Position numbers and translations under genes: made by a program. This document shows, in pieces, positions 12,898 to 44,894 of a DNA stretch of 64,000 nucleotides. The notes below the pieces were generated by a model, which worked only from the letters and a program-made list of their open reading frames with translations, made no database searches and was not told the origin of the DNA. Origin of the DNA: Corynebacterium freneyi (lineage in GTDB: Bacteria; Actinomycetota; Actinomycetes; Mycobacteriales; Mycobacteriaceae); NCBI RefSeq assembly GCF_030408835.1, contig NZ_CP047357.1, positions 310,001-374,000 of the forward strand, in the 5' to 3' direction. Every line of letters begins with the position of its first letter. Position 1 is the stretch's first letter.

Positions 12898-13292
12898 TCC
12901 GATCCGGCCGCTCACCCCGCCTCCGATCCGGCGGCCCCGGGTCCCGTCGAATACACCTCGCCGACATCGAACGCTCACCGTCCGGATGTCGGCCGGACAC
13001 GCGCACGCAATATCCGGTGGACTTGCGGCCTGTGATGGTATAGGCTGAGTCGTTGCGCTGGAATTAGGTGTGTCGTAGTGTCCCCACTTGACGTGCCGTC
13101 TGGAACCACGGTGGCGTCGCAAAGCCCATGAACTGGTGTTTTGCCACCCCCGCCCCGTTCCCGACGAGCATCGTCCGCAAGGCTCTGCCCGCCACCGTGT
13201 GATTCCTGCAAACCAAACGCTTAAAACCAAGCGGAAGGGCGCGCCACCGGTTGCCGGCGCCCCACCCGCGTGAGGTGCTGGAAGGACCCATC
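12898..13292 (+). promoter_or_regulatory. rpoBC upstream region with extended -10 promoter
   Basis: This 395-base spacer holds no convincing gene. The best promoter is the extended -10 TGGTATAGG (13036-13044); the matching -35 window is weak. That implies a ~240-base leader before rpoB. A Shine-Dalgarno GGAAGGA (13280-13286) lies just before the TTG start. Confidence 0.55.
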
Positions 13293-16763
<3,471 letters not shown>

Positions 16764-16877
16764 CCGCGGCATTCGGCGCGGGCGCGCCCCGCTCGCACGA
16801 AACAACCCAATTCAAGTACGCACATTCACGCACACTCACGAAACCCCGTGACCACGTCCGGGGGAAAGGGACAACAG

Positions 16878-20843
<3,966 letters not shown>

Positions 20844-26288: not shown

Positions 26289-26999
26289 GTGGGCACACCC
26301 TTCGGGAATTCGGAAACGCCCCGGTCAGGTGGGTTCGGCGGAGCGTCGAATCCCGGATTCGGTGGCCCACCCTCCGGCTCGGGAGGAGGATTCGGCACCC
26401 CCGGCGGGGGTGGCTCCGGTTTCGGTGCGACCCCCGGCGGGGGTGGCTCCGGTTTCGGCGCGGCGCCTTCCGGCGGTGGCGGCGGGGGCTTCGGCACCGC
26501 ACCTTCGGGTGGCGGCGGCGGGGGCTTCGGCTCGGAATCCGGTTCGAGCTTCGGCGGCGGCGATGGATTCGGTTCCGGCGGGGGCGGTTTCGGCACCGGC
26601 GGCGCGTCCGGGGGAGCGGGCTTCGACCCCTCCGGCGCAGGTCCCGCCGACGGGGCCGCGACCACCTACCGGTCCGGCCCGTGGCCGTGGGTCATCGCGG
26701 CGACCGTGACCGCGGTGATCGGCCTGGTCCTCGGCATCGTCGCGTTCTTCACCGCCGAGCCGACCGACGGCGCTTATTCCGCGCTCGCGTTCGGCGGTTG
26801 GGCGTTGGCCGGGATCGTCACGTTCATCTTGCTGGGCGTGCACCTCACGGAGGACACGAAACGGCAGGCGTCCGGACCGTACATCGGCAACGCCGGACAA
26901 ATCGCCCTGTACCGCGCGGCGGCGGGCATCGGCCTGGTGGCCGTGATCGTCACCGCGATCGAAATCGCCCTCTGGGCGTCGAAGCTGGGAGTGGCCTGA
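26289..26999 (+). CDS. FG-repeat membrane protein (operon gene 1)
   Basis: This 236-residue protein has a ~130-residue disordered N-terminal half made of Gly/Ser/Pro with regularly spaced Phe-Gly pairs (units such as GGGGSGFGATP). Three membrane helices follow: WPWVIAATVTAVIGLVLGIV, LAFGGWALAGIVTFILLGVH and IGLVAVIVTAIEIALWA. The basic loop TEDTKRQ between helices 2 and 3 predicts an inside N terminus by the positive-inside rule, so the FG tail would be cytoplasmic. No family is recognised. The start is GTG 26289 with AGGAG ten bases upstream. The stop overlaps the next start as TGATG. It resembles the last operon gene (44145-44894) in layout, suggesting the pair bracket the operon. Confidence 0.85.
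   Translation: MGTPFGNSETPRSGGFGGASNPGFGGPPSGSGGGFGTPGGGGSGFGATPGGGGSGFGAAPSGGGGGGFGTAPSGGGGGGFGSESGSSFGGGDGFGSGGGGFGTGGASGGAGFDPSGAGPADGAATTYRSGPWPWVIAATVTAVIGLVLGIVAFFTAEPTDGAYSALAFGGWALAGIVTFILLGVHLTEDTKRQASGPYIGNAGQIALYRAAAGIGLVAVIVTAIEIALWASKLGVA
26397..26534 (+). repeat. In-gene tandem repeats coding FG units
   Basis: Two 33-bp units (26397-26429, 26430-26462) differing at one base are followed by two related 36-bp units (26463-26498, 26499-26534). Each codes one Gly-rich block ending in a single FG. Such arrays can vary in copy number. Confidence 0.9.
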
Positions 27000-29900
27000 T
27001 GCTCGACAACGCAACCACGATGGCGGGCCGCATCGCCCGCCGATTCACCGGCCGCCGCGTCATCGGCGCCGTCGGCGTCGCGGCGCTGGCCATGGTCGCC
27101 GGTTCCGCCGGCGCGCTCGCGCAGGGGCTCGGTTCCGGACAAGGCGGCGGCGATCGCGCCCTCAGCGAGTTCGCCGGCTGCATCGCCGGCTCGAAGTCCG
27201 GTGACATCCTCCTGGTCATGGACGAATCCGGCTCGCTTGCCGGCACCGACGCCATCACCGCCACGGACCCCGACGCCAAGCGCGTCGACGCCGCCCAGGC
27301 CTTCGTGAAGAAGATGGCCGACTACGCCGATGCCACCGGCAGCGACATCAACGTCCGTCTCGCCGGTTTCGGCGGAGACTACAACGCGGCCACGGACTGG
27401 ACGGCCCTCGAGTCCGACGATGACGGCACCAACGTCGACGACGACATCGAGGCCTTCGCCGACCGCGCCAACGAGAACTGGACCGATTACTCCGCCGGCC
27501 TGACCGGCGCGGCCGCGGCATTCCGGGACAGCGAAAGCCCGTGCCGCACGGTTTTGTTCTTCAGCGACGGCAAGCCGACCGCCGAGGGCACCGCGGACGA
27601 CTCGGCCATCATGGACCAGGTGTGCCACGCCGACGGTCCCGTCGGACGGCTGCGCGCGAGCGGAATCCAGGTCTTCACCATCGGACTGTCCAACGGCGAC
27701 GACGACCCCGCTGAGCACCTGCGCCGGATCTCCGAGGGCACCGACTGCTCCGCCCTCGCCCCCAACGGCGCGTACATCCCCGCCGCCGACGCGTCCGCGC
27801 TGACCGCCGCGTTCGAAAGGATGGCCCCCTCGTTGGGCCTGGGCTACGACGAATCCCGCGACATCGACGAGTCGGTCGAGTTCACGCTCGACGATTCCGT
27901 GACCCCGGTGCAGCTCAGCGTCACGCCCACCGGCCCCGGCCTCGACGACATCGGTGCCCTCATTCCGGTGCTGACCCCGCCGGGCGGAGAACCCATCGAC
28001 CTGACCGGGGACGTGTCCGACATCGCCGGCAACCCGATCACCGTCACCGAGGGCAACGAAGACGCGAAGGGCTCCGTGAAGGTGGACATGGAGCGCGGCG
28101 GCGACGAATGGGCCGGCAACTGGACCTTCGGCTACCGGGTCGAGGGCGGACAGTCCGACGACGCCGGCTACGAGTTCAAGTTGGACATCATCCCGGGGCT
28201 GAGCATCGTGGTCGCCGATTCCCAGCCCAACGTGCCCCTGGCCAAGTCCGACGACGACGTCATCGGCGTCTCCATCGTGGGGCCCGACGGCGACCAGCGC
28301 CGGTTCGACGGCGACGCTCGGTTCACCGCCCGCATCGAGCCGTCCAACGGCGACGCCCCCATCACCCTCGTCGACAACGAGGACATCCGGTCCGGATCCT
28401 TGGACGTTCCGCTGGACAAGGTCAACGGCGCGGTCGCCGGCAACCTGCGGATGGAGCTGGCGGTCACCACCGCCGGCGACGAGGGCCGGCCGGGAACGCA
28501 GCTCAAGCCCCTGCACTTCTCCAAGGACATTTCCGTCGCACCCGCGACCATGCCCAAGCTGCCCGGTTCGGTGAACCTGGACGTGCACGGCACCGACGGC
28601 ACCGCGACCATGCAGGTCGCCGGTCCGGGCACCGTGTGGGTCGACCCGGGTTCCTTCACCGTCGGCGACGCCACCGTCGAGTACACGGCCGATCACGACG
28701 AGTCGAACCCGCTGGAGCTCGAGCGCGGCGAAACCGGGGAAATCGTCCTGACCGCCACCACGGGCACCGCCATCGACCGGGCCATCGCCGACGCGTGGAT
28801 TCCGGTTACGGCGGTCGACGCGGAATCGGGACAGCAGGACACCGTCGACGTCCGCGTGGAGGGCGCTCTCACCGCCCCCATCGACAAGGCGACCTTCGGC
28901 GTCGCCCTGGTCCTCGCGCTCCTGCTGGCGCTGCTCATTCCGCTGGGCGTCCTGTACCTGATGAAGTACCTCACCGGACGGATCCCGTCGAGCCCCGGCA
29001 TTCATGCGGTCCGCGTCCCCGTCACCCTCGACGGCACGACCGTGGTGCGCACGGACAAGGGCGGTGAATTCGACCTGACCTACGAGGAGGTCATCGCCGC
29101 ACCCCGCGTCACGTCGAGCGGCCGCTCCGTGACGCTGGCGGGGGAGCAGGTCGTCGTGAAGACCGGCCTGAACCCCTTCGAACCTCCGAAGGCCGTGGCC
29201 GAAAGCCCCAACTCGATTTCCGATGCGGGCGAGCGTTCGGGTGGCTCCGCGCAGCTGCCGCTGGCGGTCCACGACCGCTGGTTCGCGATCGCGCAGACTC
29301 CGGCACCGTCGACGGGAATGCAGGACCCGATGGGGCAGCTGGGACAGATGCCGGGTGCCCCGGGCAAGGACGCGCCGATTCGGGCGTCGCTCATCGTGGC
29401 CGCCGACGAGGGCATCACCCGCGAGCGGCTCGCCGCCATCGTCGACGACATTCGTCGCAATGGCGCCGACCGGCTCGGCCGGCTGAGGGAAACCATGAGC
29501 ACGGAGGGGTCCGCCGACGGCGGTCCCGCAGAGTCGCCGACGACCGACAAGGAATCGAAGCGGGCCAAGGGCAAGCGCGGACGTCGCGCGGCGGGCGCCG
29601 GTGACGGGCGGAATCAGTCGCCGCAGCCGCAGCCGTCCCCGCAGAACGACTTCCCCTCCGACTTCGGTTCGGGAGATTCCTTCGGCGGCGGGTCCGCGGG
29701 GTCCGGATTCGGTTCGAATTCCGGATTCGGCGCCGGCCCGGGATCGACCCCGGACGCGAACCGGGATTCCGGCTTCGGCCAGGGCTCCGGTTTCGGTTCG
29801 GGCGGGGGCTCGGGCTTCGGCGGCAACGCCGGCTCCGGCTTCGGCACCGGCGGAGGCTCCGGCTTCGGTGGCAACCCCGGCTCCGGCTTCGGCGCCGGCG

Positions 29901-30106
29901 GGGACTCCGGCTTCGGTGCGAACCCCGGCTCCAGCTCCGGATTCGACGGGAGCTCCGGCTTCGGTGCGAACCGCGGCTCCGGATTCGGATGGCCGAACCA
30001 GGGAGGCTTTGGCCAGGGCCCCGACTCCGGCTCAGGAAGCGGCCGCGCCGAATGGGGGGTGCCGGACGACGGTGCCGGGAACCCCCCGGGCGATCTCGAC
30101 CGATAA
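26999..30106 (+). CDS. Secreted-domain VWA membrane protein with cytoplasmic FG-repeat tail
   Basis: This 1035-residue protein has four parts. (1) An N-terminal signal peptide with a twin-basic start and hydrophobic core, ending near ALAQG (residue ~43). (2) A von Willebrand A domain from ~68 with a complete MIDAS start DESGS (75-79) and VLFFSDGKPTAEG. (3) A ~350-residue beta-rich region, then one transmembrane helix at ~632-660 (FGVALVLALLLALLIPLGVL). (4) A ~380-residue cytoplasmic part, whose last ~140 residues are FG repeats (SGFG, GGNP units). The predicted topology puts the metal-dependent adhesion site outside and the FG tail inside. VWA proteins are recorded partners of FtsZl-1 tubulin-like proteins. 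ATG 26999 overlaps the previous stop (TGATG). Confidence 0.9.
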   Translation: MLDNATTMAGRIARRFTGRRVIGAVGVAALAMVAGSAGALAQGLGSGQGGGDRALSEFAGCIAGSKSGDILLVMDESGSLAGTDAITATDPDAKRVDAAQAFVKKMADYADATGSDINVRLAGFGGDYNAATDWTALESDDDGTNVDDDIEAFADRANENWTDYSAGLTGAAAAFRDSESPCRTVLFFSDGKPTAEGTADDSAIMDQVCHADGPVGRLRASGIQVFTIGLSNGDDDPAEHLRRISEGTDCSALAPNGAYIPAADASALTAAFERMAPSLGLGYDESRDIDESVEFTLDDSVTPVQLSVTPTGPGLDDIGALIPVLTPPGGEPIDLTGDVSDIAGNPITVTEGNEDAKGSVKVDMERGGDEWAGNWTFGYRVEGGQSDDAGYEFKLDIIPGLSIVVADSQPNVPLAKSDDDVIGVSIVGPDGDQRRFDGDARFTARIEPSNGDAPITLVDNEDIRSGSLDVPLDKVNGAVAGNLRMELAVTTAGDEGRPGTQLKPLHFSKDISVAPATMPKLPGSVNLDVHGTDGTATMQVAGPGTVWVDPGSFTVGDATVEYTADHDESNPLELERGETGEIVLTATTGTAIDRAIADAWIPVTAVDAESGQQDTVDVRVEGALTAPIDKATFGVALVLALLLALLIPLGVLYLMKYLTGRIPSSPGIHAVRVPVTLDGTTVVRTDKGGEFDLTYEEVIAAPRVTSSGRSVTLAGEQVVVKTGLNPFEPPKAVAESPNSISDAGERSGGSAQLPLAVHDRWFAIAQTPAPSTGMQDPMGQLGQMPGAPGKDAPIRASLIVAADEGITRERLAAIVDDIRRNGADRLGRLRETMSTEGSADGGPAESPTTDKESKRAKGKRGRRAAGAGDGRNQSPQPQPSPQNDFPSDFGSGDSFGGGSAGSGFGSNSGFGAGPGSTPDANRDSGFGQGSGFGSGGGSGFGGNAGSGFGTGGGSGFGGNPGSGFGAGGDSGFGANPGSSSGFDGSSGFGANRGSGFGWPNQGGFGQGPDSGSGSGRAEWGVPDDGAGNPPGDLDR
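29783..29926 (+). repeat. Three 48-bp tandem repeats in the FG tail
   Basis: Units 29783-29830, 29831-29878 and 29879-29926 each code a 16-residue block of the form GSGFGxGGxSGFGxNx. They differ by scattered substitutions, so the array is not newly duplicated, but length variation between strains is likely. Confidence 0.9.
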
Positions 30107-30155
30107 TCGAAGAACTGACGACTAACCCCGATACACCCCGGAAAGAGACTCGATC

Positions 30156-33100
30156 GTGGAGAAATTTCTCGTTGTCGGATGCGGAGGCTCCGGCGCCGTA
30201 ACGCAGGCCTACATCATCGACCAGCTGAAGGCCTACCTGCGCCAGGTCGATCCCGAGCGCACGGAGCTGCCCGCCGCGTGGCAGTTCGTCAGCGTCGATG
30301 CGCCGTTGACGGCCGAGCCCGGCCCGGCCGGGTTGGCCAACGTCCCGCAGGCGGGCGGTCAGTACGTCAGCGTGGGCAACAGCCTCCATTACAACCAGTT
30401 CGAGCAGGGGCTTTCCCAGCAGCTCGCCCGCACCGGTTCGCTCGGCGAGATCGCCACGTGGGCGACGCGGGAACCGGAGAACCTCAACCTCCCCATCGAC
30501 CGAGGCGCCGGCCAGCGCCGCGCGCTCGGCCGCATGCTCACCATCCAGAACCTGGAGAAGATCCACGACGGGCTGCGTTCGGCGATGGACCGCCTGAACC
30601 GGATGGAGACCAACGCCGAGCTCAACGAGCTCAATTACAAGATCACCGGTCGGCGTTCCGACGTCACCGACAGCGAGCCGATCGCCCTGGTCATCGGTTC
30701 CATGGCGGGCGGTTCCGGTGCGTCGATGGTGTTCGACGTCGCCCGCCTGATCTCGACGCTGCCCGGCAACATGCCGTCGCGCACCGCGATCTTCATGATG
30801 AGCCCCGAAGTCTTCGAGTCGCTTTCCGAAGACGACCGTCGCGGCATGTGGCCGAACTCGCTGGCCATGTTCGGCGAGGCCGTCGCCGCGCAGACCGGCG
30901 CCGCGGTCGCCCACGATCGGGCGATCTTCAAGGCGATGGGTCTGTCGGTCACCCCGAAGAACGCCTCCTTCGCCCGCCTGTTCCCGATCGGCGCGCGCAT
31001 GGGCGGCAACCGTTCGAAGTTCGGCGACGGTTCGCCCGCCGCCATCTACCGCGGTCTCGGCCGCGCCCTGGCCGCGCTGATGACGTCGCGCAAGGCGCTC
31101 GGCTCGTTCACCCAGTACACCCTGGGCAACTCCGGCGCGATCGAGGGCAGCCGTTCGATCCTCGGATGGGGATCGCCCACCAAGGTCAGCTGGAACGACA
31201 TCCCGTGGGGCTCGATGGGATACGCGCAGCTGTCCATGGGCCGCGACCGGTACGCCGAGTACGCGGCGCAGCGGCTCGCCCGGTCGTCGTTCGAGCGCCT
31301 GCTGGAGGGCCATCTGAGCCCCGACGACCCGTCGACCGGCAAGGAGCAGCTGGACAAGCGCCTGCGCGAACGGTTGCCGGATTTCCTCGCCGCATGCCAC
31401 CTGCCGGGTGCCATGGCCGGCCAGCTGCGCGCCGCAGACGTGTACCCGTGGCTGGGATCCGTGTTCGGGGGAAGCTTCTCGGCGCCGGCCGCCAACGAGG
31501 CGGTCCGCAACATCCGGCAGACGCTGCCCGCCGGCGACGGAATGAAGTCGCGGGAATGGGCCGACCTCGTCCGCGGGCGCCTCGAGCAGTGCCGCAGCGG
31601 CGTCGACGAGATGTTGTCCGCCAACGCCTACGCGGCGGTCCACGAATTCGCGGACTTCTTCGCCGATCGCGTCATCGCCGAGATCGAAGGGGATCTGTCC
31701 CGGTACGGCGTGCCCTTCGTGGAGGAGATCGTCGACCGGCTCATGGAGATGCTCCAGGAGCCGCTGATCCCGATGATCAAGAGCTTCGCGCAGTCGGCCG
31801 CCGGAATGGATCCGATGGCGCCGTCGCCGCAGTTGGAGACCCTGCTGCAGCCGCTCAACGGCCGCGGAACGGTGAACAACTCGGCGCAGATCGCCGACAA
31901 CATCGCCGCCAGCTACACCACGCAGCTGACGCAGTACCACATCGTGCAGGTGGCCGGCCTGCTCGCCGAGGTGCTCGACGATTTCCGCGGCTCGGTTCTG
32001 CTGCGCCTGAAGCGCTCGCTCGTCAGCGTCCACAAGGACCTCGACCACGACAACCAGCGCAAGGACGTCAGCCTCAATCTGGCCGACGTCGCCACCTCCG
32101 ACCCGGTCGCGTGGCCGCGCGACGGCGAGGAAAAGATCGACGATCGTTTCCGCAGCTCCGCCAACGAAATCCTGATCACGGAGACCGACAAGTTCCCGGC
32201 GGACTACGAGGCGCACATGCTGGGCACGATGCGCGCGACGGTTCCGGATCTGCGCACCTTCCCCGAGGCCGTGTCCGTGGCCACCCGCGAGATCATCATG
32301 GGCGAATGGGATACGCAGGGCGGCATCAAAGCGCCGAACGACACCTTGTGCCCGGCCACCGGCCCGGAGTCGGGTCCCGGCAACCGCGCGGGGTGGGTGT
32401 CCAAGCACCTGACCCGCCCGCCGTACGGCCGTGGCGAGAAGCGCGATTCGCGTGCGGCGTCCTTCGACCCGCGCCTGCGTCCGGCGGACCTCATCGAGCG
32501 CACGCGCCTGTGGATCGCCCGGCCGGCGAAGCCGTTCAGCGATTTCATCGGCGTCGATCTGCGTTCGTACCTGACCCGGGACGCCGCCTCGAACGACGCG
32601 GAGTACCACGGTCGGCTCAATCGCCTGCACGACGCCTTCTACAAGGCTCTGCACCAGGCCCGGCCTCTGGCCGCGGTGTCGTCGGAGATGCTCAACCGGG
32701 TCTACGGCGTCGGCCGCGAGCAGTACCACTTCAACTTCTCGGAGATTCCGCTCGACGGCCTGGAGGCCGGCTCCCGCCTGTCGGAGATCATCCAGAACGA
32801 CACGACCCGCGACGACGCGACGGTCACGACCTTCGAGTCGGCGTTCACCACGGATAACCGGGTGTTCAGCATCGACGTCTTCGGGTCGTACCCGAACTAC
32901 TCGCCGGTGGTGTTCTCGTCGCTGTTCCCGCACATCGCGGAGGATTGGAACGGCCGCGGCGGCAATTCGGAGAGCTTCTGGGAGCTGCGCCGCGCCCGCC
33001 CGCTGCCGGCGGCGCTGCCGCTGACCGACGATGAGCGTCGTGCGATGGTCGCGGGGTGGCACATCGGCGTGCTGACGGGGCGGATCTACATTTCGGGTCT

Positions 33101-33803
33101 GGGCACCGCGTCGGCGGCGGCGCACATCTTCGATGATGCGCAGGAAGAGTGGGTGCCGTTCCCGCAGAAGCTGCTGACGCCGCCGACGAAGTTCCGTGGC
33201 AACGAGGATTGGATGCCCGCGGTCATCGAGTCGGTTCTCCTGGCCTACGCGGACGTGCAGACCGCGCCGCCGGGTGGTCGCATCGGCGATTCGCTTCGTC
33301 CGTACCGCCTGCTCCGGGAGCTTTACGACGACGGTGCGGAAGGCCCCACGACCGGAGCGGTGGATCACTCCGTGGTCAAGGTGCTGGCGGAGTGGCTCGC
33401 CACGGGCAAGGACCCGCAGAGCGACACGGGCACCTCGCCCCACGGTTCGACTTTGGCCGAGCGCAAGGCCAAGGCGGAGGAGGTGCTGCGGACCGCCCGC
33501 GCGAAGGCGGCGAACTTCCTGTCGGCCACCGGCCGGGCGGCGCTGCCCGGGGCCCGTCCCACCGACCGCCCCTGGTCGTACGTGGTGGATCGACGCATCG
33601 CGGCCGAGATGCCGCTGTACCGTGACCTGGCCGACGACGTCGACTACATGGCCGCGGACCTGCTCAAGCGTCTCGAGGAGGCCGCGGTGGTCGCCGAGAA
33701 TTGGGGCCGTGAGCCGGTCGCGTCGCCTCAGCCGCTGATCACCGGTGCCGACGACCCGACTCTGACGTCGCGGCCGGAGGGCTTCGGCGGGGGTCTGATC
33801 TGA
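30156..33803 (+). CDS. Tubulin/FtsZ-like GTPase, Tubulin_2 (FtsZl-1) family
   Basis: This 1215-residue protein is large for the superfamily (FtsZ is ~400). The N terminus reads VVGCGGSG in a Rossmann-like first strand and loop. At residues 183-189 the motif MAGGSGA within VIGSMAGGSGASMVFDVA is the counterpart of the tubulin signature GGGTGTG, with altered residues. These are the hallmarks of the Tubulin_2 family. The remaining ~850 residues show no other recognised domain and look mainly helical. The protein ends in GFGGGLI, echoing the FG units of its neighbours. Makarova and Koonin (2010) proposed that FtsZl-1 proteins act with VWA and GTPase partners in membrane remodelling. GTG 30156 has GGAAAGAG upstream. 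GTPase or filament formation is unproven. Confidence 0.85.
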   Translation: MEKFLVVGCGGSGAVTQAYIIDQLKAYLRQVDPERTELPAAWQFVSVDAPLTAEPGPAGLANVPQAGGQYVSVGNSLHYNQFEQGLSQQLARTGSLGEIATWATREPENLNLPIDRGAGQRRALGRMLTIQNLEKIHDGLRSAMDRLNRMETNAELNELNYKITGRRSDVTDSEPIALVIGSMAGGSGASMVFDVARLISTLPGNMPSRTAIFMMSPEVFESLSEDDRRGMWPNSLAMFGEAVAAQTGAAVAHDRAIFKAMGLSVTPKNASFARLFPIGARMGGNRSKFGDGSPAAIYRGLGRALAALMTSRKALGSFTQYTLGNSGAIEGSRSILGWGSPTKVSWNDIPWGSMGYAQLSMGRDRYAEYAAQRLARSSFERLLEGHLSPDDPSTGKEQLDKRLRERLPDFLAACHLPGAMAGQLRAADVYPWLGSVFGGSFSAPAANEAVRNIRQTLPAGDGMKSREWADLVRGRLEQCRSGVDEMLSANAYAAVHEFADFFADRVIAEIEGDLSRYGVPFVEEIVDRLMEMLQEPLIPMIKSFAQSAAGMDPMAPSPQLETLLQPLNGRGTVNNSAQIADNIAASYTTQLTQYHIVQVAGLLAEVLDDFRGSVLLRLKRSLVSVHKDLDHDNQRKDVSLNLADVATSDPVAWPRDGEEKIDDRFRSSANEILITETDKFPADYEAHMLGTMRATVPDLRTFPEAVSVATREIIMGEWDTQGGIKAPNDTLCPATGPESGPGNRAGWVSKHLTRPPYGRGEKRDSRAASFDPRLRPADLIERTRLWIARPAKPFSDFIGVDLRSYLTRDAASNDAEYHGRLNRLHDAFYKALHQARPLAAVSSEMLNRVYGVGREQYHFNFSEIPLDGLEAGSRLSEIIQNDTTRDDATVTTFESAFTTDNRVFSIDVFGSYPNYSPVVFSSLFPHIAEDWNGRGGNSESFWELRRARPLPAALPLTDDERRAMVAGWHIGVLTGRIYISGLGTASAAAHIFDDAQEEWVPFPQKLLTPPTKFRGNEDWMPAVIESVLLAYADVQTAPPGGRIGDSLRPYRLLRELYDDGAEGPTTGAVDHSVVKVLAEWLATGKDPQSDTGTSPHGSTLAERKAKAEEVLRTARAKAANFLSATGRAALPGARPTDRPWSYVVDRRIAAEMPLYRDLADDVDYMAADLLKRLEEAAVVAENWGREPVASPQPLITGADDPTLTSRPEGFGGGLI

Positions 33804-36544: not shown

Positions 36545-36612
36545 TGAACGAGTTCGATGAGCGCGAGCGGGGCAGTCGCCCGGTGAACGCCGACAGTGGA
36601 GGAAGCAAGTGA
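36544..36612 (+). CDS. Possible 22-codon coupling micro-ORF
   Basis: The 64-base gap between two operon genes is bridged exactly by a small ORF. Its ATG overlaps the upstream stop as TGATG, it encodes MNEFDERERGSRPVNADSGG plus two residues, and its TGA overlaps the downstream GTG start as GTGA. The Shine-Dalgarno of the next gene (GGAGGAAG) lies inside it. It may serve only to carry ribosomes across; no product function is claimed. Confidence 0.45.
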   Translation: MNEFDERERGSRPVNADSGGSK

Positions 36613-38990
36613 GCGAAAAGTCCGGGAACGACGACAAGTCCCGTGCTATTTCGGAAGTGCCCGAGTACATCCTCCGGGCGATCGTCCGCATGGGCGAGCC
36701 CTCCGTCCAGGCGATCGAGCGGATCCTGCCGGCGCAGCACAAGAAGCTGGCGCCGGAGATCCACGAGCGGTTGGTGGGAGACAAGCGTCGGGAAGCCGGG
36801 GACGCCCCCGCGGCGGCCGCCGCACCGACCCAGCCGGACGACTCCGGTCAGGCGGCGCCGTCTTCGGGGTGGATGCAGGACAAGCCTCCCGCCTGGTCCA
36901 CCCCGTCCGAGTCGCGCCCGTCCGGGGCCAACCCCGCCTGGGAATCCGCCCCACCGCAGGTTCCTCCGACGGGCGGCGCCCCCGCGTCGGCTGCGCCGTC
37001 GGGGCCGGGCCCCGTGCACCCCGGGCCCGAATCGACTCCGGCCGCACCCGCCGCGCCCGGGGCTCCCGGGGCTTCCGCTGCGTCCCGGGCTCCTGCGGCA
37101 CCCGCGGCAGACGCCCGTCCCGCTCCGACGGCCGAGGAACGGCAGGAGCCCGCGGAACCGGAGGTGACGGTCAACCCGCTCGTCGCGGGATTCGAGCGGT
37201 ACCTCGAAGGTGGCGCCGGAGTGGAATCCGTCATGAATCCGGGTGACCGCCTGGATCTGGACAACACCGTCTTCGACCAGTACGAATTCGGAGAATCCTC
37301 GAAGGTCGGCGCCGAAGGCATCAAGGTGCGGCACCGGGGCAGGGGAGACGCCGCGAAGATCGAGGTGACGTGGAAGCGTCCCTCCTGGGTGAACGACGGC
37401 GACATCGTCGTCTACCGCGTGATCGCCTCGGACCGGATCGTGGCGCCCTCACCGGAAGCCGGGGATCTCGTGCTGTGCACGGTGGGCCACGGCTTCGAGG
37501 AGCCGGTGCCCTCTCGCATCGCATTCCGCCACTACCAGGTGTGGGTCAACGTCGGCGAGGACCACGGCAGCGCCCTGCGGTCCCAGCCCCGGCTCGTCGG
37601 CGAGGACATCTGCGTTCTCCCGGTCCCCGGCGTCGACATCACGGTGTCGGCGGGCGTCGTCGAGGGCAAGTGGGATTTCCTCGACGGCTATTCGGAGATT
37701 CGCGTGTTCGCGAGCCCGGCGGACTCCCCGGAACCCGTGGACTCGCCCGCCAATCAGCTGTTCGAGGGCGTGACCAAGAAGGGGTTCGAACACAAGTCGC
37801 CCATCCGCGGTGACCGCATGCGCTTCGCCATCACCCCCGCCGTCGAGTTCCGGGGAACCAAGGAAGTGTGCACCCGCCCCGACGTCCACGAGATCTTCAT
37901 CACCGCGGAATTGGAGAAGGTCAGCCTGGAAATGGCCCGGGGCGTCAACGTCGGCGGCGACGAGCGCATCCACATCACGTTCTTCTCTCCGGCCGCGGGA
38001 CAGGTGAAGATCTACCTGAGCCCCAGCGCCCCTTCTCCGGGCCTGTCGTTCCAGGCCGTGCCCGTCGAGGCATTGGGGCGCGATCAGGCGTTGGCCGAGG
38101 GCCGCGTCGTCGCCGACGAGCAGAACCCGGAAGGCGAACAGATCGACGTCCAGCCGATGTGGCCTGCCGAATGGGACGAAGTCCACATCACGCCGGTGAC
38201 CATCGTCGACGACATGGCCGTCGTCGGCGACACCGAAGTGCTGCAGCGGGTCCGGCCGATCGAGCACGCGAAGCTGGTAGAGCGCACCGACAGCCAGCTG
38301 GTCACCTTCGAATGGCCGGCCGGAGCGTCCATGGTGAAGATCGAAACGGCTCCGACCGGTTCGACGGCGCCCGAGGACCGGACGGCGCACACGGAGTACG
38401 ACGAAAAGCGGTACCGCCGCGATGGCGGAGTCCGCCTCCACCTCAACTCCTACGGCGAAAACGTCCTGCTGACCCCGCGCAGCATGTACGCGGGCAGGGA
38501 AACCAGCGCCACCCCCACCGTGCTGGCGTACCGGGGGCTGCGCCAGTACCGGTACAGCCTGTCCAACGAGCATGGCGGCATCGTCCTTCGGCTGTGGTGC
38601 GAGGGCGGCGACGACCGCAACCCGCCGACCTTCACGCTCGTGCATCACCCGGTCCGATTCCCGCTGTCGCTGGAGGACGCCATGGAGCAGGGCGCCGGGG
38701 AGTGCCGCGTGGCGCAGATCCTGCCGGGGCAGACGACGACGTTCGGCGAACCCTCCCGGCTCATCCGGCCCGATCGTCTGCCCGACCAGAACGACCGGAC
38801 GGAGAGCGCGACCTGGTTCCTGCCTCCCGAGGAGATCATGCGCATGCGGCCGGGCCAGTGGTTCCGCCTGTTCATCGTGGACTCCGGGATGCCCGGCGGC
38901 GGCCACGACCCCGATGGTCCGCGGCGCATCGTCACCGATGTCGGCAACCCCATGCCCTTCGTCCATCCGAGCATGTGGGGCGCACGATGA
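36609..38990 (+). CDS. Multi-domain beta-sandwich protein of the operon
   Basis: This is a 793-residue soluble protein. Residues 1-57 form a helical domain (VPEYILRAIVRMGEPSVQAI and LPAQHKKLAPEIHERLVG). Residues ~60-185 form a Pro/Ala-rich linker. The rest is an array of about five beta-rich segments, each with a strand resembling fibronectin III B/C strands: KIEVTWKRPSWVNDGDIVVY, HITFFSPAAGQVKIYL and VTFEWPAGASMVKIE. The Fn3-like fold is inferred from pattern only. It has no signal peptide and no transmembrane segment. It could be a scaffold linking GTPase and VWA components. GTG 36609 follows GGAGGAAG; the stop overlaps the next start (ATGA). Confidence 0.75.
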   Translation: MSEKSGNDDKSRAISEVPEYILRAIVRMGEPSVQAIERILPAQHKKLAPEIHERLVGDKRREAGDAPAAAAAPTQPDDSGQAAPSSGWMQDKPPAWSTPSESRPSGANPAWESAPPQVPPTGGAPASAAPSGPGPVHPGPESTPAAPAAPGAPGASAASRAPAAPAADARPAPTAEERQEPAEPEVTVNPLVAGFERYLEGGAGVESVMNPGDRLDLDNTVFDQYEFGESSKVGAEGIKVRHRGRGDAAKIEVTWKRPSWVNDGDIVVYRVIASDRIVAPSPEAGDLVLCTVGHGFEEPVPSRIAFRHYQVWVNVGEDHGSALRSQPRLVGEDICVLPVPGVDITVSAGVVEGKWDFLDGYSEIRVFASPADSPEPVDSPANQLFEGVTKKGFEHKSPIRGDRMRFAITPAVEFRGTKEVCTRPDVHEIFITAELEKVSLEMARGVNVGGDERIHITFFSPAAGQVKIYLSPSAPSPGLSFQAVPVEALGRDQALAEGRVVADEQNPEGEQIDVQPMWPAEWDEVHITPVTIVDDMAVVGDTEVLQRVRPIEHAKLVERTDSQLVTFEWPAGASMVKIETAPTGSTAPEDRTAHTEYDEKRYRRDGGVRLHLNSYGENVLLTPRSMYAGRETSATPTVLAYRGLRQYRYSLSNEHGGIVLRLWCEGGDDRNPPTFTLVHHPVRFPLSLEDAMEQGAGECRVAQILPGQTTTFGEPSRLIRPDRLPDQNDRTESATWFLPPEEIMRMRPGQWFRLFIVDSGMPGGGHDPDGPRRIVTDVGNPMPFVHPSMWGAR

Positions 38991-41539
38991 GCGCGGTCGA
39001 GCTGCTGACGTACGCGTCGTTCGCGGTGCCCGGCGGACGGGGCGGTTGGGGCGTCGGGCAACGTGGCCGGGGCCTGACGGATGAAGAGGTGCGCAAGCTC
39101 ACCGAGCAGGTGCCGACCCGCATAGACGGGACGACGCCGGTGCCCCAGTACCCTTCGGCCGACGACATCAGCGGGTTGCAGCGGCGCATGGCGTGGACCC
39201 GCGCCCCGTGGCCGGGCGATGATCGGGTGTTCTGGTTTTCGTCCCCGGCCGGCGAGGACGCCACGGGACGGGCGGGCAACGTGTTCACGCAGGTTCACGT
39301 GTTCCGTGGCGGCGTCGGGGAATTCCCGGTGCTGTGGCCCAGCGACCTGATGTTTTCCCCGGCCCTCCGGTTCCCGTTCGGTGCCAGGGAGGTCAATTCG
39401 ACCACCGTGCCGGAGGGCGTTCCGCCGCTCGGCCCGCTCGCGGTTCCCGGCAAGCTGTGGCCGTGGATCTTCGCGGATTGCGAGGTCGATCGTCGTGCCG
39501 TGCTCGGCGCGATTCTCGACGGGTGCGCGGACGGTCGCCTCGTGGCGGTGGCGTGTCCTCCCGAGGATGCGGCGATGTGGGTTGCGGCGGTGTGCCAGGC
39601 GCAGTCGCCCGCGACCGCCCGCGATTTCTCGTGGTCGACGTTCGAGCGGGCCCGTTCCCTGGGCACCGCCCGGTCTCGCGGCGTGTCGCTTGCGTGCATT
39701 CCGTTGGAGGACGCGGCCGAGGCCGCCGAGGTGCCCGACGTCATCGTCGTCTCCACCGAGGAGACTCCGGAGATGGGGGTGTACGGCGGCGCCTCGACGA
39801 TGGTCGGCGGGACGCCGCTGACGGTGTCGGAGTGGTCGACGCTGTTGTCGTTCATGTTCCTGATGCCCGACGAGGCCATGCATTTCTCCCACTTGCTGCG
39901 TTCGGGGGAGGTGCCGGTCGCCGTCGGCGGTGATCCCGCCTGGCAGTTGGCCGCCGTGGCGGTGACGAACGAGGAGTTGAGGTCGGCTGCGCGGGACCCG
40001 TTGCTCGGTCTGCTGTCCCGGCCCGGGGATGCCCCGGAGAACATGGACGAGGTGTTTCCCGTCGGCGTCGCCGATGCCCTCGCCGATGAGTTGCTCGCCG
40101 ACGACGGGGCGGGGCCCGAGTCGCTGTCGGTGCTCGCGACGCTGGCTTCGGCCGGGCTTTTCGACGATCCCGACCGCCGGGAGGAAGCGTTCGCGTTCCT
40201 GGAGCGGCGTGGGCTCGGAGCCGCGGTCGTCCGCGGCGATGAGAGCGTGCTGGCCACGTCGATCGGGACGGACAATCCGTTGGTGAGCGTGCTGCGGGAG
40301 ATCACGGCGACGGATGGGGCGTTGCATGAGGCGATCGCCGGAGGCATCGGCTTGCCCGTGGCGGCGGCAGAGTGGTTGGGCGTGCCGCAGGTGGCGGAGC
40401 GTTTCCTGGCCACGATGCGCGGCACCGCCCCAGACGAGTTCAAGGCTCCCGTGTGGGAGGGAGACCTCATCGGTGCGTGGGTGCTGGGCGCGATGTCGGA
40501 TGTGGGCGGGCCCGCGGGCGACGTGTTCGGCGATGCCTCGGGTGCCGGCGATTGGCAGGCGGGGGATTGGTCCGCGCCGTCGTCCATGCCGTCGCCGGAG
40601 ATGACGGTGTTCGGGCTCAACTCCCTGGTGGAATCCCTGGGAGACCGGGCCACCGGTTTGACGCCGGTGGTGGAGCGGGAGCTGTCCCGCATGTCGGAGC
40701 CGGAGCGGCGGCTGTTGGCCGAGGGCCCCTGGCGCCCGGAGCTGGAGAAGGCAGTTACCGAGCGGGGAAACCGCACCACCACCGGTGAGTCCGAGGCATG
40801 GGGTCGCAACCCCGGGTGGGAAGCGGACGATGCGCAGACTGCGGCCATCCGGCCGGATCAGGCCCCGGTGCATCGACAGGACGAGGGGCAACGAGGCGAG
40901 GAACACGCCTCGGCCCGGACACCGCGTCAGCCGCGGAGGCATGAACTGGTCCCCGCCTTCGTCCGGTACTTCGACCCCCGCCAGATCGCGGAGATCGAGA
41001 ATTACGCGGGACCGGAGCTCGGCGAGAAGATTGGGCACGTGTTCGGCCTGAGGTCGAAACCGCCGGCCTGGTCCACTCTCGGTGAGGTCCTGCTCACCGC
41101 TCAGCGGGATGAACTTCCGGACATGGATCGGATCCGGCGCGTCGTGCTGGCGTCGGCGTTGTCGGAATCCCTGTTGCGCAAGTGGTATTCCGACACCCGG
41201 AATCTGCCGTGGTGGCTGCTCGACGACATGCGTGACGACGAACTGCGCGACGTGCTCGACATGGCGGTCGACATGGTGCGGCGCAGCGAAAGGTTCCGCG
41301 CGGGTGCCGTCGGCGAACTCAACGGCGACGACCCGCCGCCGGAGGCCCGCAAGCTGGTGGCGGAAGCCAAGGCCGTGCTCGACGGGGACCTTGCGGTACG
41401 GCACTCGACGCGGGGAAGAACCCCGCGCGACATCCCGGCGGGCGACGGGTTCGACGGTGGCCGCAGGCACCGGGACGGCGTGCCCGGAAACGGCCAACTT
41501 TTCGGCAAACTCCGTCGACGTTCCGATGACCACAGGTAG
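38987..41539 (+). CDS. GTPase-associated protein 1 (GAP1)-like protein
   Basis: This is an 850-residue soluble protein. The N-terminal ~130 residues read like the GAP1-N2 domain: ELLTYASFAVPGGRGGWGV with a Gly-rich turn, RRMAWTRAPW, and RVFWFSSPAGEDATGRAGNV leading into FTQVHVF. A middle region with VPGKLWPWIFADCE follows, then a long helical C-terminal half. Pfam GAP1 domains are named for association with double-GTPase proteins, and such a GTPase gene lies two genes downstream, which supports the call. The likely role is as a partner or adaptor of that GTPase; no enzymatic residues are evident. The ATG overlaps the previous stop as ATGA. The assignment is from memory of the family and needs a profile search. 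Confidence 0.72.
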   Translation: MSAVELLTYASFAVPGGRGGWGVGQRGRGLTDEEVRKLTEQVPTRIDGTTPVPQYPSADDISGLQRRMAWTRAPWPGDDRVFWFSSPAGEDATGRAGNVFTQVHVFRGGVGEFPVLWPSDLMFSPALRFPFGAREVNSTTVPEGVPPLGPLAVPGKLWPWIFADCEVDRRAVLGAILDGCADGRLVAVACPPEDAAMWVAAVCQAQSPATARDFSWSTFERARSLGTARSRGVSLACIPLEDAAEAAEVPDVIVVSTEETPEMGVYGGASTMVGGTPLTVSEWSTLLSFMFLMPDEAMHFSHLLRSGEVPVAVGGDPAWQLAAVAVTNEELRSAARDPLLGLLSRPGDAPENMDEVFPVGVADALADELLADDGAGPESLSVLATLASAGLFDDPDRREEAFAFLERRGLGAAVVRGDESVLATSIGTDNPLVSVLREITATDGALHEAIAGGIGLPVAAAEWLGVPQVAERFLATMRGTAPDEFKAPVWEGDLIGAWVLGAMSDVGGPAGDVFGDASGAGDWQAGDWSAPSSMPSPEMTVFGLNSLVESLGDRATGLTPVVERELSRMSEPERRLLAEGPWRPELEKAVTERGNRTTTGESEAWGRNPGWEADDAQTAAIRPDQAPVHRQDEGQRGEEHASARTPRQPRRHELVPAFVRYFDPRQIAEIENYAGPELGEKIGHVFGLRSKPPAWSTLGEVLLTAQRDELPDMDRIRRVVLASALSESLLRKWYSDTRNLPWWLLDDMRDDELRDVLDMAVDMVRRSERFRAGAVGELNGDDPPPEARKLVAEAKAVLDGDLAVRHSTRGRTPRDIPAGDGFDGGRRHRDGVPGNGQLFGKLRRRSDDHR

Positions 41540-41548
41540 GAGAAGAAC

Positions 41549-43135
41549 ATGTCAGTGAATTCCCTCGGAGAGGGCCAGGAGTTTCGCATGTCGGCCCGCG
41601 GCATGTTCCAGGTCCAGGCCCATTCGCTTGGTTCCCGGGAGCCCGTGCGGCTGGAGCTGCGCGGCGACGCCGACGCCAACCGCGTGGACGACTCGACCCT
41701 GAAGGTCATAGGGGCCGGTTCGTCGTCGCAGGTCGTGCTCAGGCCGGTCGCGGGCGGCGATTTCGGCCCGGGGCGGTCGGCGCAGGTCATCGTCACCCGC
41801 GGTCGCCCCGGAACGGATTCGGCGCAGAGCATCGAGTTTCCTCGCGTCACCCTCGACGGTCGTTCCGAGGTCGTCGTCGGCCTGATTCGGGCGGAGGGCG
41901 ATGATCTGCTGCTGCGTGCGGAGGGCCTCGTCGCCGAAGGCCGGTTGGACGGCCCGGCGGCCACGGTGCGCGCCGCCGTGCGTTCCGCACTCGACGCGGC
42001 GTCGGTGCACCCGGCCGAAGGGATGGCCATCCGCGTTCACGTCGACAGGTCGGCGTCGATGTCCGCGCCGTCGGTGCTGGCCCGCCTCGCTCCCGCCGTC
42101 GACGTCATCGTCGGCGCGGCCAGCGTCATTCCCGGCACGCCGCGCGTGACGGTCGTCGCGGACGGCGAAACCCGTGTCCTCGACTCCGTCGCCGACCTCG
42201 CGGGAGAGGTCCGGCAGCTCGTGCAGTCCGGGGCCGCCCGCATCGGCGGCGGCGAAACGGTGTCGGACGGCATGGATGACCTGACGTTCGTCATCTCCGA
42301 CGCGGTGCCCGCCGCCGTGGCCGACGGAGACTCGAATGCCGTGTCGCTGTTGCTGCGGGGTGCGTCCCGCCACGGTTCCTCCACCGTCGTCGCCGTCGAC
42401 GATCGTTTGATCGATGCCCTGGAATCGGGCCGGTCGGATGCCATCCGCAGCTCCGTGGAATCCGTGGTCATGGCCATGCGCCGGATCAACGACGGATCCC
42501 GAGGCGCCGCCGCGCCGGCTGCACCCGCTGCCTCCGAGCCCCCGCAGGCCCCGGCCCGGGACGCCGATCCCTTCGGCGGAACGCCCACGTTCGCGGACTC
42601 GTCTCCGTTCGGGCAGGCTCCGGCTTTCGGGGAATCGCAGTCCTTCGGCGAGGCCCCGCGGTTCGGCTCGCCCGAGGGCTTCGGCTCCGACTCCTCGTGG
42701 GGGAACCCTCCGACCTTCGGGGATGCGCCGGCTTCCGCACCCGCCTCCGACGGCACCGCGGAATCCGCCCCGGCGACAGACGACATCGTGGATGCCGACG
42801 CGCCCACCACCCACTTCGCCGCACCGACCGGAACCACGCCGACCGGAACCACGCCGACCGGAACCACGCCGACCGGCAACCGTCCGAGCGGAACCGGGTG
42901 GACCGGGACGTGGGCCGCGCAATCCCCGTCGACGGAAGCGGAATCGGCCGACACCGGTCGGGACACCCCCGGCCGCCACGCGCGGGACGCCGAAGCGGAA
43001 GACGATGGACGTCGTCAAGCACCCGTGTGGCCGACCAGCCCCACCACCCCGACGCAGCGTCCCGGAAACGACATCCGACCCCCCATGTTCGGCGCACCCG
43101 CCGACGACCGCTCCGACGAGGATGACCGCCGATGA
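41549..43135 (+). CDS. Cytoplasmic VWA-like protein with FG and TTPTG repeats
   Basis: This is a 528-residue protein without signal peptide or membrane helix. Residues ~1-125 are beta-rich. A VWA-like domain follows at ~160-310 with the MIDAS start DRSAS in IRVHVDRSASMSAPSV and a later LTFVISDAVP strand. Residues ~335-395 hold FG-type units (PFGGTPTF, SSPFGQAPAFGES, SFGEAPRFG), then a Thr/Pro region with three TTPTG units and an acidic tail. It is the internal counterpart of the exported VWA protein in the same operon. AGGAGAAG precedes ATG 41549, nine bases after the previous stop; the 3' end overlaps the GTPase start (ATGA). Confidence 0.82.
   Translation: MSVNSLGEGQEFRMSARGMFQVQAHSLGSREPVRLELRGDADANRVDDSTLKVIGAGSSSQVVLRPVAGGDFGPGRSAQVIVTRGRPGTDSAQSIEFPRVTLDGRSEVVVGLIRAEGDDLLLRAEGLVAEGRLDGPAATVRAAVRSALDAASVHPAEGMAIRVHVDRSASMSAPSVLARLAPAVDVIVGAASVIPGTPRVTVVADGETRVLDSVADLAGEVRQLVQSGAARIGGGETVSDGMDDLTFVISDAVPAAVADGDSNAVSLLLRGASRHGSSTVVAVDDRLIDALESGRSDAIRSSVESVVMAMRRINDGSRGAAAPAAPAASEPPQAPARDADPFGGTPTFADSSPFGQAPAFGESQSFGEAPRFGSPEGFGSDSSWGNPPTFGDAPASAPASDGTAESAPATDDIVDADAPTTHFAAPTGTTPTGTTPTGTTPTGNRPSGTGWTGTWAAQSPSTEAESADTGRDTPGRHARDAEAEDDGRRQAPVWPTSPTTPTQRPGNDIRPPMFGAPADDRSDEDDRR
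42826..42880 (+). repeat. 15-bp tandem repeat (TTPTG units)
   Basis: GACCGGAACCACGCC occurs three times exactly (42826-42840, 42841-42855, 42856-42870) followed by a partial GACCGGCAAC copy. The perfect identity suggests recent slippage; the copy number should vary among strains without shifting frame. Confidence 0.95.
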
Positions 43136-44148
43136 CCGTCCCCCAACTCCCGGCCACCCCCACCCGGTGCCCGTACACGTTCCGTCCCCTGCGCGACCCG
43201 CAGGCGACCCGCAGCGAGTACGTCGACCGTGAACTGCCCGCCGGATGGGCGGACTCCGGCACGCTGTGCATCGCGCTGGCCGGCGCCCGCGCCTCCGGCA
43301 AGAGCCTGTACATCGCCGTCCTGGTGAAGATGCTCGACCAGCTGGCCCAAAGCCACCGCAAGGTCATCCGCGGCGCCGACGAATCGACCCGCGAGCGATA
43401 CCGGGACAACTACGAAAAGCCCCTCTTCGAGGAAATGGGCCTCATGCCGCCCACGCCGCGCATGGCCGCAGAAGACGCCTACCAGCGCGACCCCCTGATC
43501 TTCGACCTGGGCACCTGGGACGTCGGGCAGGGGCCGCGGAAGTTCTTCCTGGTCATCCGCGACGTCGCCGGCGAGGACCTCGAAGTGCTGCCCGACGACC
43601 CGGACTCGCTCGGCTTCTTCCGCGAGGCCGACGAGATCATCTTCCTCTTCGACCCGCTGAAGGTCCCGCAGATCCGCAATTACCTGTCGGGCCTGGTCCC
43701 GGATCAGACGCTCGGCGGCGACCCCGTAGACGTCCTGCAGAACCTCCTCGACCTGCTCGGCCAGGCCCGCCCGCGACTGGCGGTGACCCTGTCCAAGTTC
43801 GACACCCTGCAGGAACTCGAACGCGTCCCCGACAGCGAGTGGGGCCGGATCATGGGCAACTATGGGGCGGCGTACCGCAGGGACACGGGGCTGCGCTTCG
43901 ACAACAACGATTCCCTCTACCTCGACGCGGAAATCCGCAGCATGTTGCTCAAGCTCGATGCCGGCCGACTCGTGCTCACCCTCGAGGACAGGTACCGGCC
44001 CGCCAACGGGTACGGTTTCCGATACTTTGCGACGTCCGCCCTGGGCGCGGCGCCCCAGGGGCAGCATCTCCACCGCAGCGGCATCGCGCCGTTCCGTTGC
44101 CTGGATCCGGTGCTGTGGCTGCTCACGGACAGGGGGCTGTTCCGATGA
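43132..44148 (+). CDS. P-loop GTPase, double-GTPase (DO-GTPase2)-like
   Basis: This is a 338-residue TRAFAC-like GTPase. The Walker A motif is AGARASGKS (G1, near residue 50). The G3/Walker B reads FFLVIRDVAGED with the D-x-x-G core; the base-recognition loop G4 is TLSKFDTL (NKxD-like, with SKFD); and G5 is ATSALG. A conserved-looking CPYTFRPL segment precedes the P loop. Layout and neighbours match the DO-GTPase2 family, which pairs with GAP1-like and VWA proteins. It is soluble and probably acts at the membrane with the adjacent FG membrane protein. The ATG overlaps the previous stop (ATGA) and its own stop overlaps the next start (ATGA). Confidence 0.85.
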   Translation: MTVPQLPATPTRCPYTFRPLRDPQATRSEYVDRELPAGWADSGTLCIALAGARASGKSLYIAVLVKMLDQLAQSHRKVIRGADESTRERYRDNYEKPLFEEMGLMPPTPRMAAEDAYQRDPLIFDLGTWDVGQGPRKFFLVIRDVAGEDLEVLPDDPDSLGFFREADEIIFLFDPLKVPQIRNYLSGLVPDQTLGGDPVDVLQNLLDLLGQARPRLAVTLSKFDTLQELERVPDSEWGRIMGNYGAAYRRDTGLRFDNNDSLYLDAEIRSMLLKLDAGRLVLTLEDRYRPANGYGFRYFATSALGAAPQGQHLHRSGIAPFRCLDPVLWLLTDRGLFR

Positions 44149-44894
44149 ACGGGAACGGAAACTTCGGAGGGCCCGGCTTCGGCCAGAGCGGGTTCGGCCA
44201 GGGCGGTTTCGGCGGAGGATCCGACCAGTCCGGGTTCGGCCACGGCGGCGGTTTCGGCGGATCCGGCCAAGCGGGCGGCTTCGGAAGCGGATTCGGCGGG
44301 ACGGGCGGATTCGGTGCAGGCGGAGGACAGCCGGCGACCCCGGACCGCTCCGGCTTCGGCGGGGGCTTCGCGCCCGGCGGCGACGACTACCGATTCGGCG
44401 GGCCCGCGCCGGGCGGCCACACCGGGCCCACGGGGCACAAGGCCCCGTTCGGGCAGCGGATGGCGTCGATGAAGTTCTTCAACGCTCCCGTCACGATCCT
44501 CATCGCCTTCGCGATGCAGCTGGTCACCGCGGGCGTGGTCATCTGGCGTCTGGTCGAGCGGTGGCAACTGCCCGAGCGACCCACCACCGGCGTCGGTCTG
44601 TTGGAAGGGTACGAGGATCGGATCGCCTCGGCGATCGGGGCGAACGACTCGTTCCGGCCCGAGAACATCCTGGAGACCACCATCTTCTGGGGGATCATCC
44701 TGGTGGTGCTGCTGCTGATGGCGTTCTTCACCGTGAAGGGGGAGAACTGGGCGCGCATCGTGCTCACGCTGCTGTGCATCGCCGGAGTGCTCCTCCTGGC
44801 CGTGTCCGGCTTCGCCATCGCCGGCCTGGCCTGCGTGATCACGCTGCCCCTGTTGTGGGTGCCGGTCAACAAATCATGGTTCGGTCAGGTGTGA
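44145..44894 (+). CDS. FG-repeat membrane protein (last operon gene)
   Basis: This is a 249-residue protein. Residues 1-105 are a Gly/Phe-rich disordered tail (FGGPGFGQSGFGQGGFGGG and similar) with about 20 Phe-Gly pairs. The C-terminal part has four membrane helices: VTILIAFAMQLVTAGVVIW, TTIFWGIILVVLLLMAFFTV, WARIVLTLLCIAGVLLLAVS and AGLACVITLPLLWVPV. Basic residues just before helix 1 (GQRMASMKFF) predict an inside N terminus, so the FG tail is cytoplasmic. No family is recognised. The start overlaps the GTPase stop by four bases, so the pair is probably made together. It ends before a strong convergent terminator. Confidence 0.85.
   Translation: MNGNGNFGGPGFGQSGFGQGGFGGGSDQSGFGHGGGFGGSGQAGGFGSGFGGTGGFGAGGGQPATPDRSGFGGGFAPGGDDYRFGGPAPGGHTGPTGHKAPFGQRMASMKFFNAPVTILIAFAMQLVTAGVVIWRLVERWQLPERPTTGVGLLEGYEDRIASAIGANDSFRPENILETTIFWGIILVVLLLMAFFTVKGENWARIVLTLLCIAGVLLLAVSGFAIAGLACVITLPLLWVPVNKSWFGQV

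Follow-up and report, generated by a model that had tools for sequence, protein, structure and literature searches.

What does a bacterium build from a tubulin-like protein, a P-loop GTPase and two von Willebrand factor A (VWA) proteins that are encoded, along with several membrane proteins, in a single operon? The question is raised by a locus of Corynebacterium freneyi, which we analysed within a window of 64,000 nucleotides (positions 310001-374000 of the single 2.88 Mb contig NZ_CP047357.1; coordinates without a locus name refer to this window). The operon consists of nine plus-strand genes, named g1 to g9 (26289-44894), with successive spacings of -1, 49, -1, 64, -4, 9, -4 and -4 nt and thus overlaps at five of eight junctions. 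A first-pass annotation had rightly recognised an operon running in one direction with overlaps at most junctions, yet counted eight genes, while its own list sums to the nine that are present. Our reading, which we hold tentatively and place just short of an even chance, is that the operon builds one membrane-spanning machine, in which a membrane-anchored tubulin assembly is timed by a switch made of the GTPase, a GAP1 protein and a beta-domain array, and is connected to the outside by a VWA receptor. A near-fixed eight-part set, a GTPase-array fusion, a full tubulin fold and a candidate pseudo-tubulin anchored in the membrane would make this a concrete, testable machine in an easily handled Corynebacterium, and bear on the choice between a defence system and an envelope cytoskeleton for this branch.

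The operon is not a chance arrangement: its gene order is found again across Actinobacteria, and of 121 genomes sampled from the genus an identical set of 36 encodes Tubulin_2 and GAP1-N2, with one copy each (a count uncorrected for relatedness). In the 20 of these 36 genomes whose neighbourhoods were compared, g1 to g8 stand together in the same order and on the same strand without exception. A one-genome-per-species scan by tubulin similarity found 120 genomes encoding a relative, the best 80 of which provided 80 named loci; with the 20 loci of the genus this gives 100 loci, or 91 distinct ones when nine repeats of the same or a near-identical genome are set aside. The named loci stem from Corynebacterium, Mycobacterium and its segregates, Rhodococcus, Gordonia, Williamsia, Nocardia, Propionibacteriaceae, Actinomyces, Nocardioides and one metagenome-assembled genome (MAG) of the Solirubrobacterales; the closest relative of the window among the best 80 of 120 is a Corynebacterium MAG (L050), whose tubulin is 90% identical. 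The complete set g1 to g8 is found in one order and on one strand in 80 of the 91 distinct loci. The remaining 11 are ordered but incomplete, ten of them lacking only genes past contig ends and one, from Actinomyces (L117), a detectable g7. Moreover, the pairwise distance matrices of g2, g3, g4, g5, g6 and g8 across 34 loci correlate at 0.79-0.96, values of which none is reached in 500 permutations, with the highest correlation between g3 and g4 (0.962). These parts travel as a set and are not exchanged.

Central to the proposed machine is g3 (30156-33803, 1215 residues), whose residues 5-378 match Tubulin_2 in Pfam with an E-value of 2.2e-40, the sole Tubulin_2 match in the genome. The trait of the FtsZl1 family, a Tubulin_2 nucleotide-binding domain with glycine-rich loops, is present, GxGGxG being kept in 91 and GGxGA in all of 92 distinct sequences. 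According to the predicted model, g3 is a tubulin-superfamily protein that retains the two tubulin domains, separated by a large helical insert of about 450 residues (approximately residues 385-840, followed by a tubulin-like C-terminal domain at approximately 843-1037; limits inferred). The insert between the two domains, the divergent loops and the companion GTPase and VWA proteins set g3 apart from CetZ, FtsZ, TubZ and tubulin itself.

Two VWA proteins accompany g3. The longer one, g2 (26999-30106, 1035 residues), starts with an N-terminal transmembrane segment or signal, continues with an exported VWA domain (residues 69-249, 27203-27745; E 4.9e-10) carrying the metal ion-dependent adhesion site (MIDAS) DESGS at residue 75, and after a further transmembrane segment at residue 633 ends in a cytoplasmic part with a C-terminal tail rich in phenylalanine-glycine (FG) dipeptides from about residue 888. 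Its MIDAS is intact in 88 of 89 distinct sequences; FN3 was not detected in g2 by Pfam. The shorter one, g7 (41549-43135, 528 residues), has no Pfam match of its own, which holds for g4 and g5 as well, and shows no recognisable signal sequence. It is assigned as a cytoplasmic VWA protein through its relatives, among 44 aligned members of which vWA-TerF-like matched three, VWA_2 two and VWA_3 one (E 0.01), and through the MIDAS motif DRSAS at residue 166, a motif that 72 of 84 distinct sequences retain. Hydropathy places transmembrane segments in g1, g2, g4 and g9; one more within the VWA domain of g7 we take to be the core strand of the domain and not a membrane span. Parts and topology are supported by sequence or model, with the g2 VWA domain and its intact metal site outside and that of g7 inside.

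The GTPase g8 (43132-44148, 338 residues) matches DO-GTPase2 (E 8e-8; 32.7 bits at a cut-off of 27) and contains the P-loop GARASGKS along with DVAGE and SKFD. In distinct sequences the P-loop pattern is kept in 85 of 85, DxxGE in 83 of 85 and [TSN]KxD in 78 of 85. The GAP1 protein g6 (38987-41539, 850 residues) combines GAP1-N2 (residues 7-131, E 3.9e-10) and GAP1-M (residues 172-242, E 6.8e-6) with a variable C-terminal part, and the lengths of 45 relatives range from 325 to 957 residues. For g5 (36609-38990, 793 residues) an array of FN3-like beta domains is weakly supported, because fn3 matched one of 45 members and a PDB sequence search found FN3 chains with a best E-value of 0.0016; HRDC had no match in g5 of the window by Pfam. 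The first-pass annotation had listed a Tubulin_2 protein, one exported and one cytoplasmic VWA protein, a DO-GTPase-like P-loop GTPase, a GAP1-like partner, a beta-domain array protein and three membrane proteins, all of which are borne out (the three membrane proteins being g1, g4 and g9 besides the exported g2), the array only with the restriction just given. Likewise, the Pfam searches and the neighbourhood comparison across Corynebacterium that it had suggested gave significant Tubulin_2 and P-loop GTPase matches and co-occurring genes. It did not contain the possible tubulin kinship of g4, the recurrent FG tails or the near-invariance of the set.

How GTPase and array belong together is indicated by three more distant loci that contain both families (L142, L143/L144, L145), in which the order g1-g2-g3-g4 is kept and g5, g6 and g8 are present. 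In all three, g5 and g8 form a single fused protein (L142:12410-15928, plus strand; L144:10320-13700, minus strand; L145:3245-6793, minus strand) with GAP1 next to it; a g7-like VWA gene lies on the opposite strand in two of the three. The usual gene order is seen in L146 and L147. Gene fusion being a classical kind of evidence, g5 and g8 appear to act together, and this P-loop GTPase, encoded with the GAP1 protein g6, is by the sequences of its relatives tied to the array. Among 397 genomes of the wider order, Tubulin_2 occurs in 20, GAP1-N2 in 43 and both in 13, so that each is also found without the other. As a separate observation, DO-GTPase2 was found above cut-off in the genus genomes G042, G045, G052, G078 and G091, all of which are devoid of Tubulin_2, and in G018 a match (C11:130856-131347) lies on a different contig from the tubulin. 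DO-GTPases may thus occur in the genus in a further context that lacks a tubulin.

The gene directly after the tubulin gene encodes a protein with two transmembrane segments, g4 (33803-36544, 913 residues), composed of an alpha/beta N-terminal domain (approximately residues 1-212), a helical region, a transmembrane hairpin (residues 548-606, 35444-35620) and a C-terminal domain (approximately residues 686-880). It is possible that g4 is a degenerate tubulin relative. The protein of the window matches no Pfam family at E 1, and for 50 members Tubulin_2 is not among the matches listed (25 of 61 families). Identification of g4 as a tubulin by sequence was rejected: aligned by hhalign, the N-terminal domains of g4 and g3 scored 13.5, compared to a top score of 21.2 for 20 column-shuffled decoys, and because of this we do not claim tubulin membership. 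As a candidate bridge we considered the product of the gene after the tubulin gene in phylum relatives, here called protein X (five sequences, L148, L150, L155, L158 and L159). X directly follows the tubulin gene in L148, L155, L158 and L159, while in L150 X (L150:1532-3796, plus strand) is on a different contig from the tubulin gene; a 739-residue protein at this position in L154 has no similarity to X. Pfam detects Tubulin_2 in two of the five (L150, 3.6e-9, above cut-off; L148, 5.7e-4, below) and none in L155, L158 and L159, and among three tested X proteins a g4-like hairpin is predicted in L148 and L155 and a single segment in L150. In a search of 1521 open reading frames with an extended g4 profile, X of L148 was the best non-g4 match, though with an E-value of only 0.075, and X aligned with the extended g4 alignment over no more than 22 columns (E 0.006); a smaller comparison gave E 2.6e-4 among nine sequences, a set too small to weigh. 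Protein X was discarded as a sequence bridge between g4 and the tubulins.

The FG-rich tails are a further recurrent feature. They occur at the N-terminus of g1 (26289-26999, 236 residues; tail at residues 1-134, 26289-26690, followed by three transmembrane segments) and of g9 (44145-44894, 249 residues; tail at residues 1-115, with about four transmembrane segments), at the C-terminus of g2 and as an additional C-terminal tail in g7. The best 100-residue windows hold 11 (g1), 12 (g2), 7 (g7) and 12 (g9) FG dipeptides, compared to a maximum of 5 among 233 likely genes of a 400 kb sample of the same genome (about 14% of it). The positive charges of the g1, g2 and g9 tails fit the cytoplasmic side, and by charge and topology all four tails should face the cytoplasm. 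Judged by its sequence, g9 is a probable paralogue of g1; in L037 and L049 the g1 profile also matches g9, which could be identified in 8 of the 20 genus neighbourhoods and 18 of the 91 distinct loci, exclusively in Corynebacterium. In other genera the tails of g1 and g2 bear the related motifs NPFG, DPF and GWG. Of the 91 distinct loci, 66 allowed the two tails to be delimited, and at least one [FW][GD] is present in each tail in 65 of these 66. The tails of g1 and g2 resemble each other within a genome more than in a within-group shuffle in Corynebacterium (n = 19; p = 0.0026 for aromatic context, 0.001 for composition) and in all groups together (n = 38; p = 0.0018 and 0.0002, respectively), and not above the shuffle in Mycobacterium, Rhodococcus/Nocardia or Gordonia/Williamsia taken alone. 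We regard this modest match as no more than suggestive, as composition and relatedness may account for part of it. Plausibly, the tails would be mutually sticky or bound by a common receptor.

Operons of this kind are known from two computational papers, Makarova and Koonin 2010 (PMC2875224) and Kaur et al. 2020 (PMC7159879), and the links that the first-pass annotation drew to Makarova and Koonin and to the GTPase/GAP1 systems of the Aravind group are correct. Its statement that no corynebacterial version had been characterised stands for experiments, as Tubulin_2 (FtsZl1) proteins have been known from the literature since 2010 and no study of how the actinobacterial ones work was found in the literature searched; it fails for computational work, since Kaur et al. 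described the actinobacterial version and the 2010 paper names, in its review section, the C. glutamicum member cgR_2627. With the FtsZl1 operons of that paper our locus shares the FtsZl1/Tubulin_2 protein, a VWA protein, a distinct GTPase and membrane proteins, whereas the OmpA-like protein given there was not found in the operon, and our model places after the helical insert a tubulin-like C-terminal domain, a similarity that the 2010 paper did not find. The actinobacterial tubulin-type GAP1-N2/DO-GTPase systems (PMC7159879) agree in DO-GTPase, GAP1-N2, a single tubulin whose C-terminal part is helical, a VWA protein of the membrane (described there with a beta-rich or FN3 part) and, as far as the weak FN3 signals of g5 go, an FN3-repeat protein; in line with this, the locus has a DO-GTPase that carries both P-loop and Walker B glutamate, a GAP1 protein with an N2-type N-terminal domain and, in the model, one tubulin with a helical part. 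In contrast, the consulted part of that paper has no mention of g1, g4 or FG tails (the terms low complexity and glycine-rich are absent from its main text), gives a second VWA protein only for the firmicute form, reports a fusion of the FN3-repeat protein to HRDC, which was not seen here, and stresses variable components, where ours are constant among the actinobacterial relatives sampled. The GAP1-N2 systems of firmicutes, for which the same source outlines two tubulin genes, resemble the operon by this description in their two VWA proteins and in a possible second tubulin at the g4 position, and differ in that g4 is without a detectable tubulin motif.

In the machine that we propose, the outer VWA domain of g2 would bind an envelope or cell-surface ligand, g8, g5 and g6 would work as a GTP switch, and g4, possibly a degenerate tubulin, would serve as membrane anchor and template for the assembly of g3. 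The FG tails would collect the parts at the inner membrane face, and assembly would result in a reshaped or organised envelope. That this is a two-tubulin membrane machine, in which g4, a cryptic pseudo-tubulin with a transmembrane hairpin gained and the GTP loops lost, templates or anchors the active g3, while FG-rich cytoplasmic tails on neighbouring membrane proteins hold the assembly and the DO-GTPase/GAP1/FN3 module times it, we consider possible, at somewhat less than an even chance. Several points weigh against the proposed machine. Polymerisation of g3 is assumed from its fold; no experimental work on any actinobacterial member was found in the literature searched; and loci chosen by likeness to this tubulin are biased towards uniform neighbourhoods. 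Presence is patchy (36 of 121 genus genomes), and the phylum sample, with Tubulin_2 in 17 of 396 genomes, has other gene arrangements. Here, the g4 profile matches four of the 396 genomes (one weakly, over 72 positions) and three of the 17 with Tubulin_2; a profile built by us adds g4-like genes in two more of these 17 (L152, L153). Finally, a distant g4 relative (L151:8590-11841, minus strand) ends in a trypsin-like protease domain (PF13365, E 1.3e-28) and looks like an effector.

The latter protein leads to the main rival, a biological conflict (anti-invader) system as put forward by Kaur et al. 2020, with FN3-like sensors, a GTPase-GAP1 threshold and the tubulin as multimerising effector, which we judge rather unlikely. 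That class is built around the pair of DO-GTPase and GAP1-N2, and the patchy distribution, a GAP1 protein that is highly variable in length and among the fastest evolving parts, and the one trypsin-fused g4 relative, whose protease domain matches protease parts of PADLOC models, fit a conflict role. However, none of ten window proteins matched a catalogued defence model of PADLOC 2.0.0 at E 0.1, and Pfam found no toxin or nuclease domain in the window proteins. In ten close pairs, wherever both sequences were at hand, the ratio of nonsynonymous to synonymous substitution rates (dN/dS) is well below 1 for g1 to g8, with g3 and g8 mostly slowest and g6, g1 and g2 mostly fastest. Parts that stay constant and are not swapped among the actinobacterial relatives sampled, a dN/dS far below 1, correlated distances and a single copy per genome of the genus between housekeeping flanks are unlike what is expected of a system with swappable effectors. 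We regard as improbable a surface-attachment or secretion-linked scaffold, in which the exported VWA protein would be adhesin-like and tubulin and GTPases would merely position it. The MIDAS of the exported VWA domain accords with it, as does the one experimental Tubulin_2 study found, in which Synechocystis sll0445 mutants were impaired in phototaxis and altered in their photosystem II fluorescence, and the protein associated with pilus proteins (PMC9880817). Yet sll0445 stands in a different gene setting, next to FtsA- and DivIC-like genes, and neither the operon nor the tested set of flanking window proteins showed a recognisable pilus or secretion component.

Around the operon, the window proteins that were tested are products of housekeeping genes. 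To one side lie rpoB/rpoC (13251-20843), thiC and genes for a LiaF-like protein and a Na/Pi cotransporter, to the other rpsL, fusA and the gene of a sugar transporter (13251-53160 from rpoBC to rpsL-fusA). An NCBIfam scan of the window proteins gave no significant match, one reaching E 0.065, below its cut-off. Convergent to the operon lies a gene for a TPR-rich protein of 613 residues (44982-46823, minus strand) with weak TPR matches below the Pfam cut-offs. Its membership is uncertain: homologues adjoin one of the 20 and two of the 80 loci (L041, L042 and L043), and, being rare beside relatives, it may not belong to the system. Seven loci, two of them from one genome, have an rpoC-like sequence on their upstream side, and a gene read as groEL adjoins five others; overall, the flanks of the loci are conserved inside clades and different between them.

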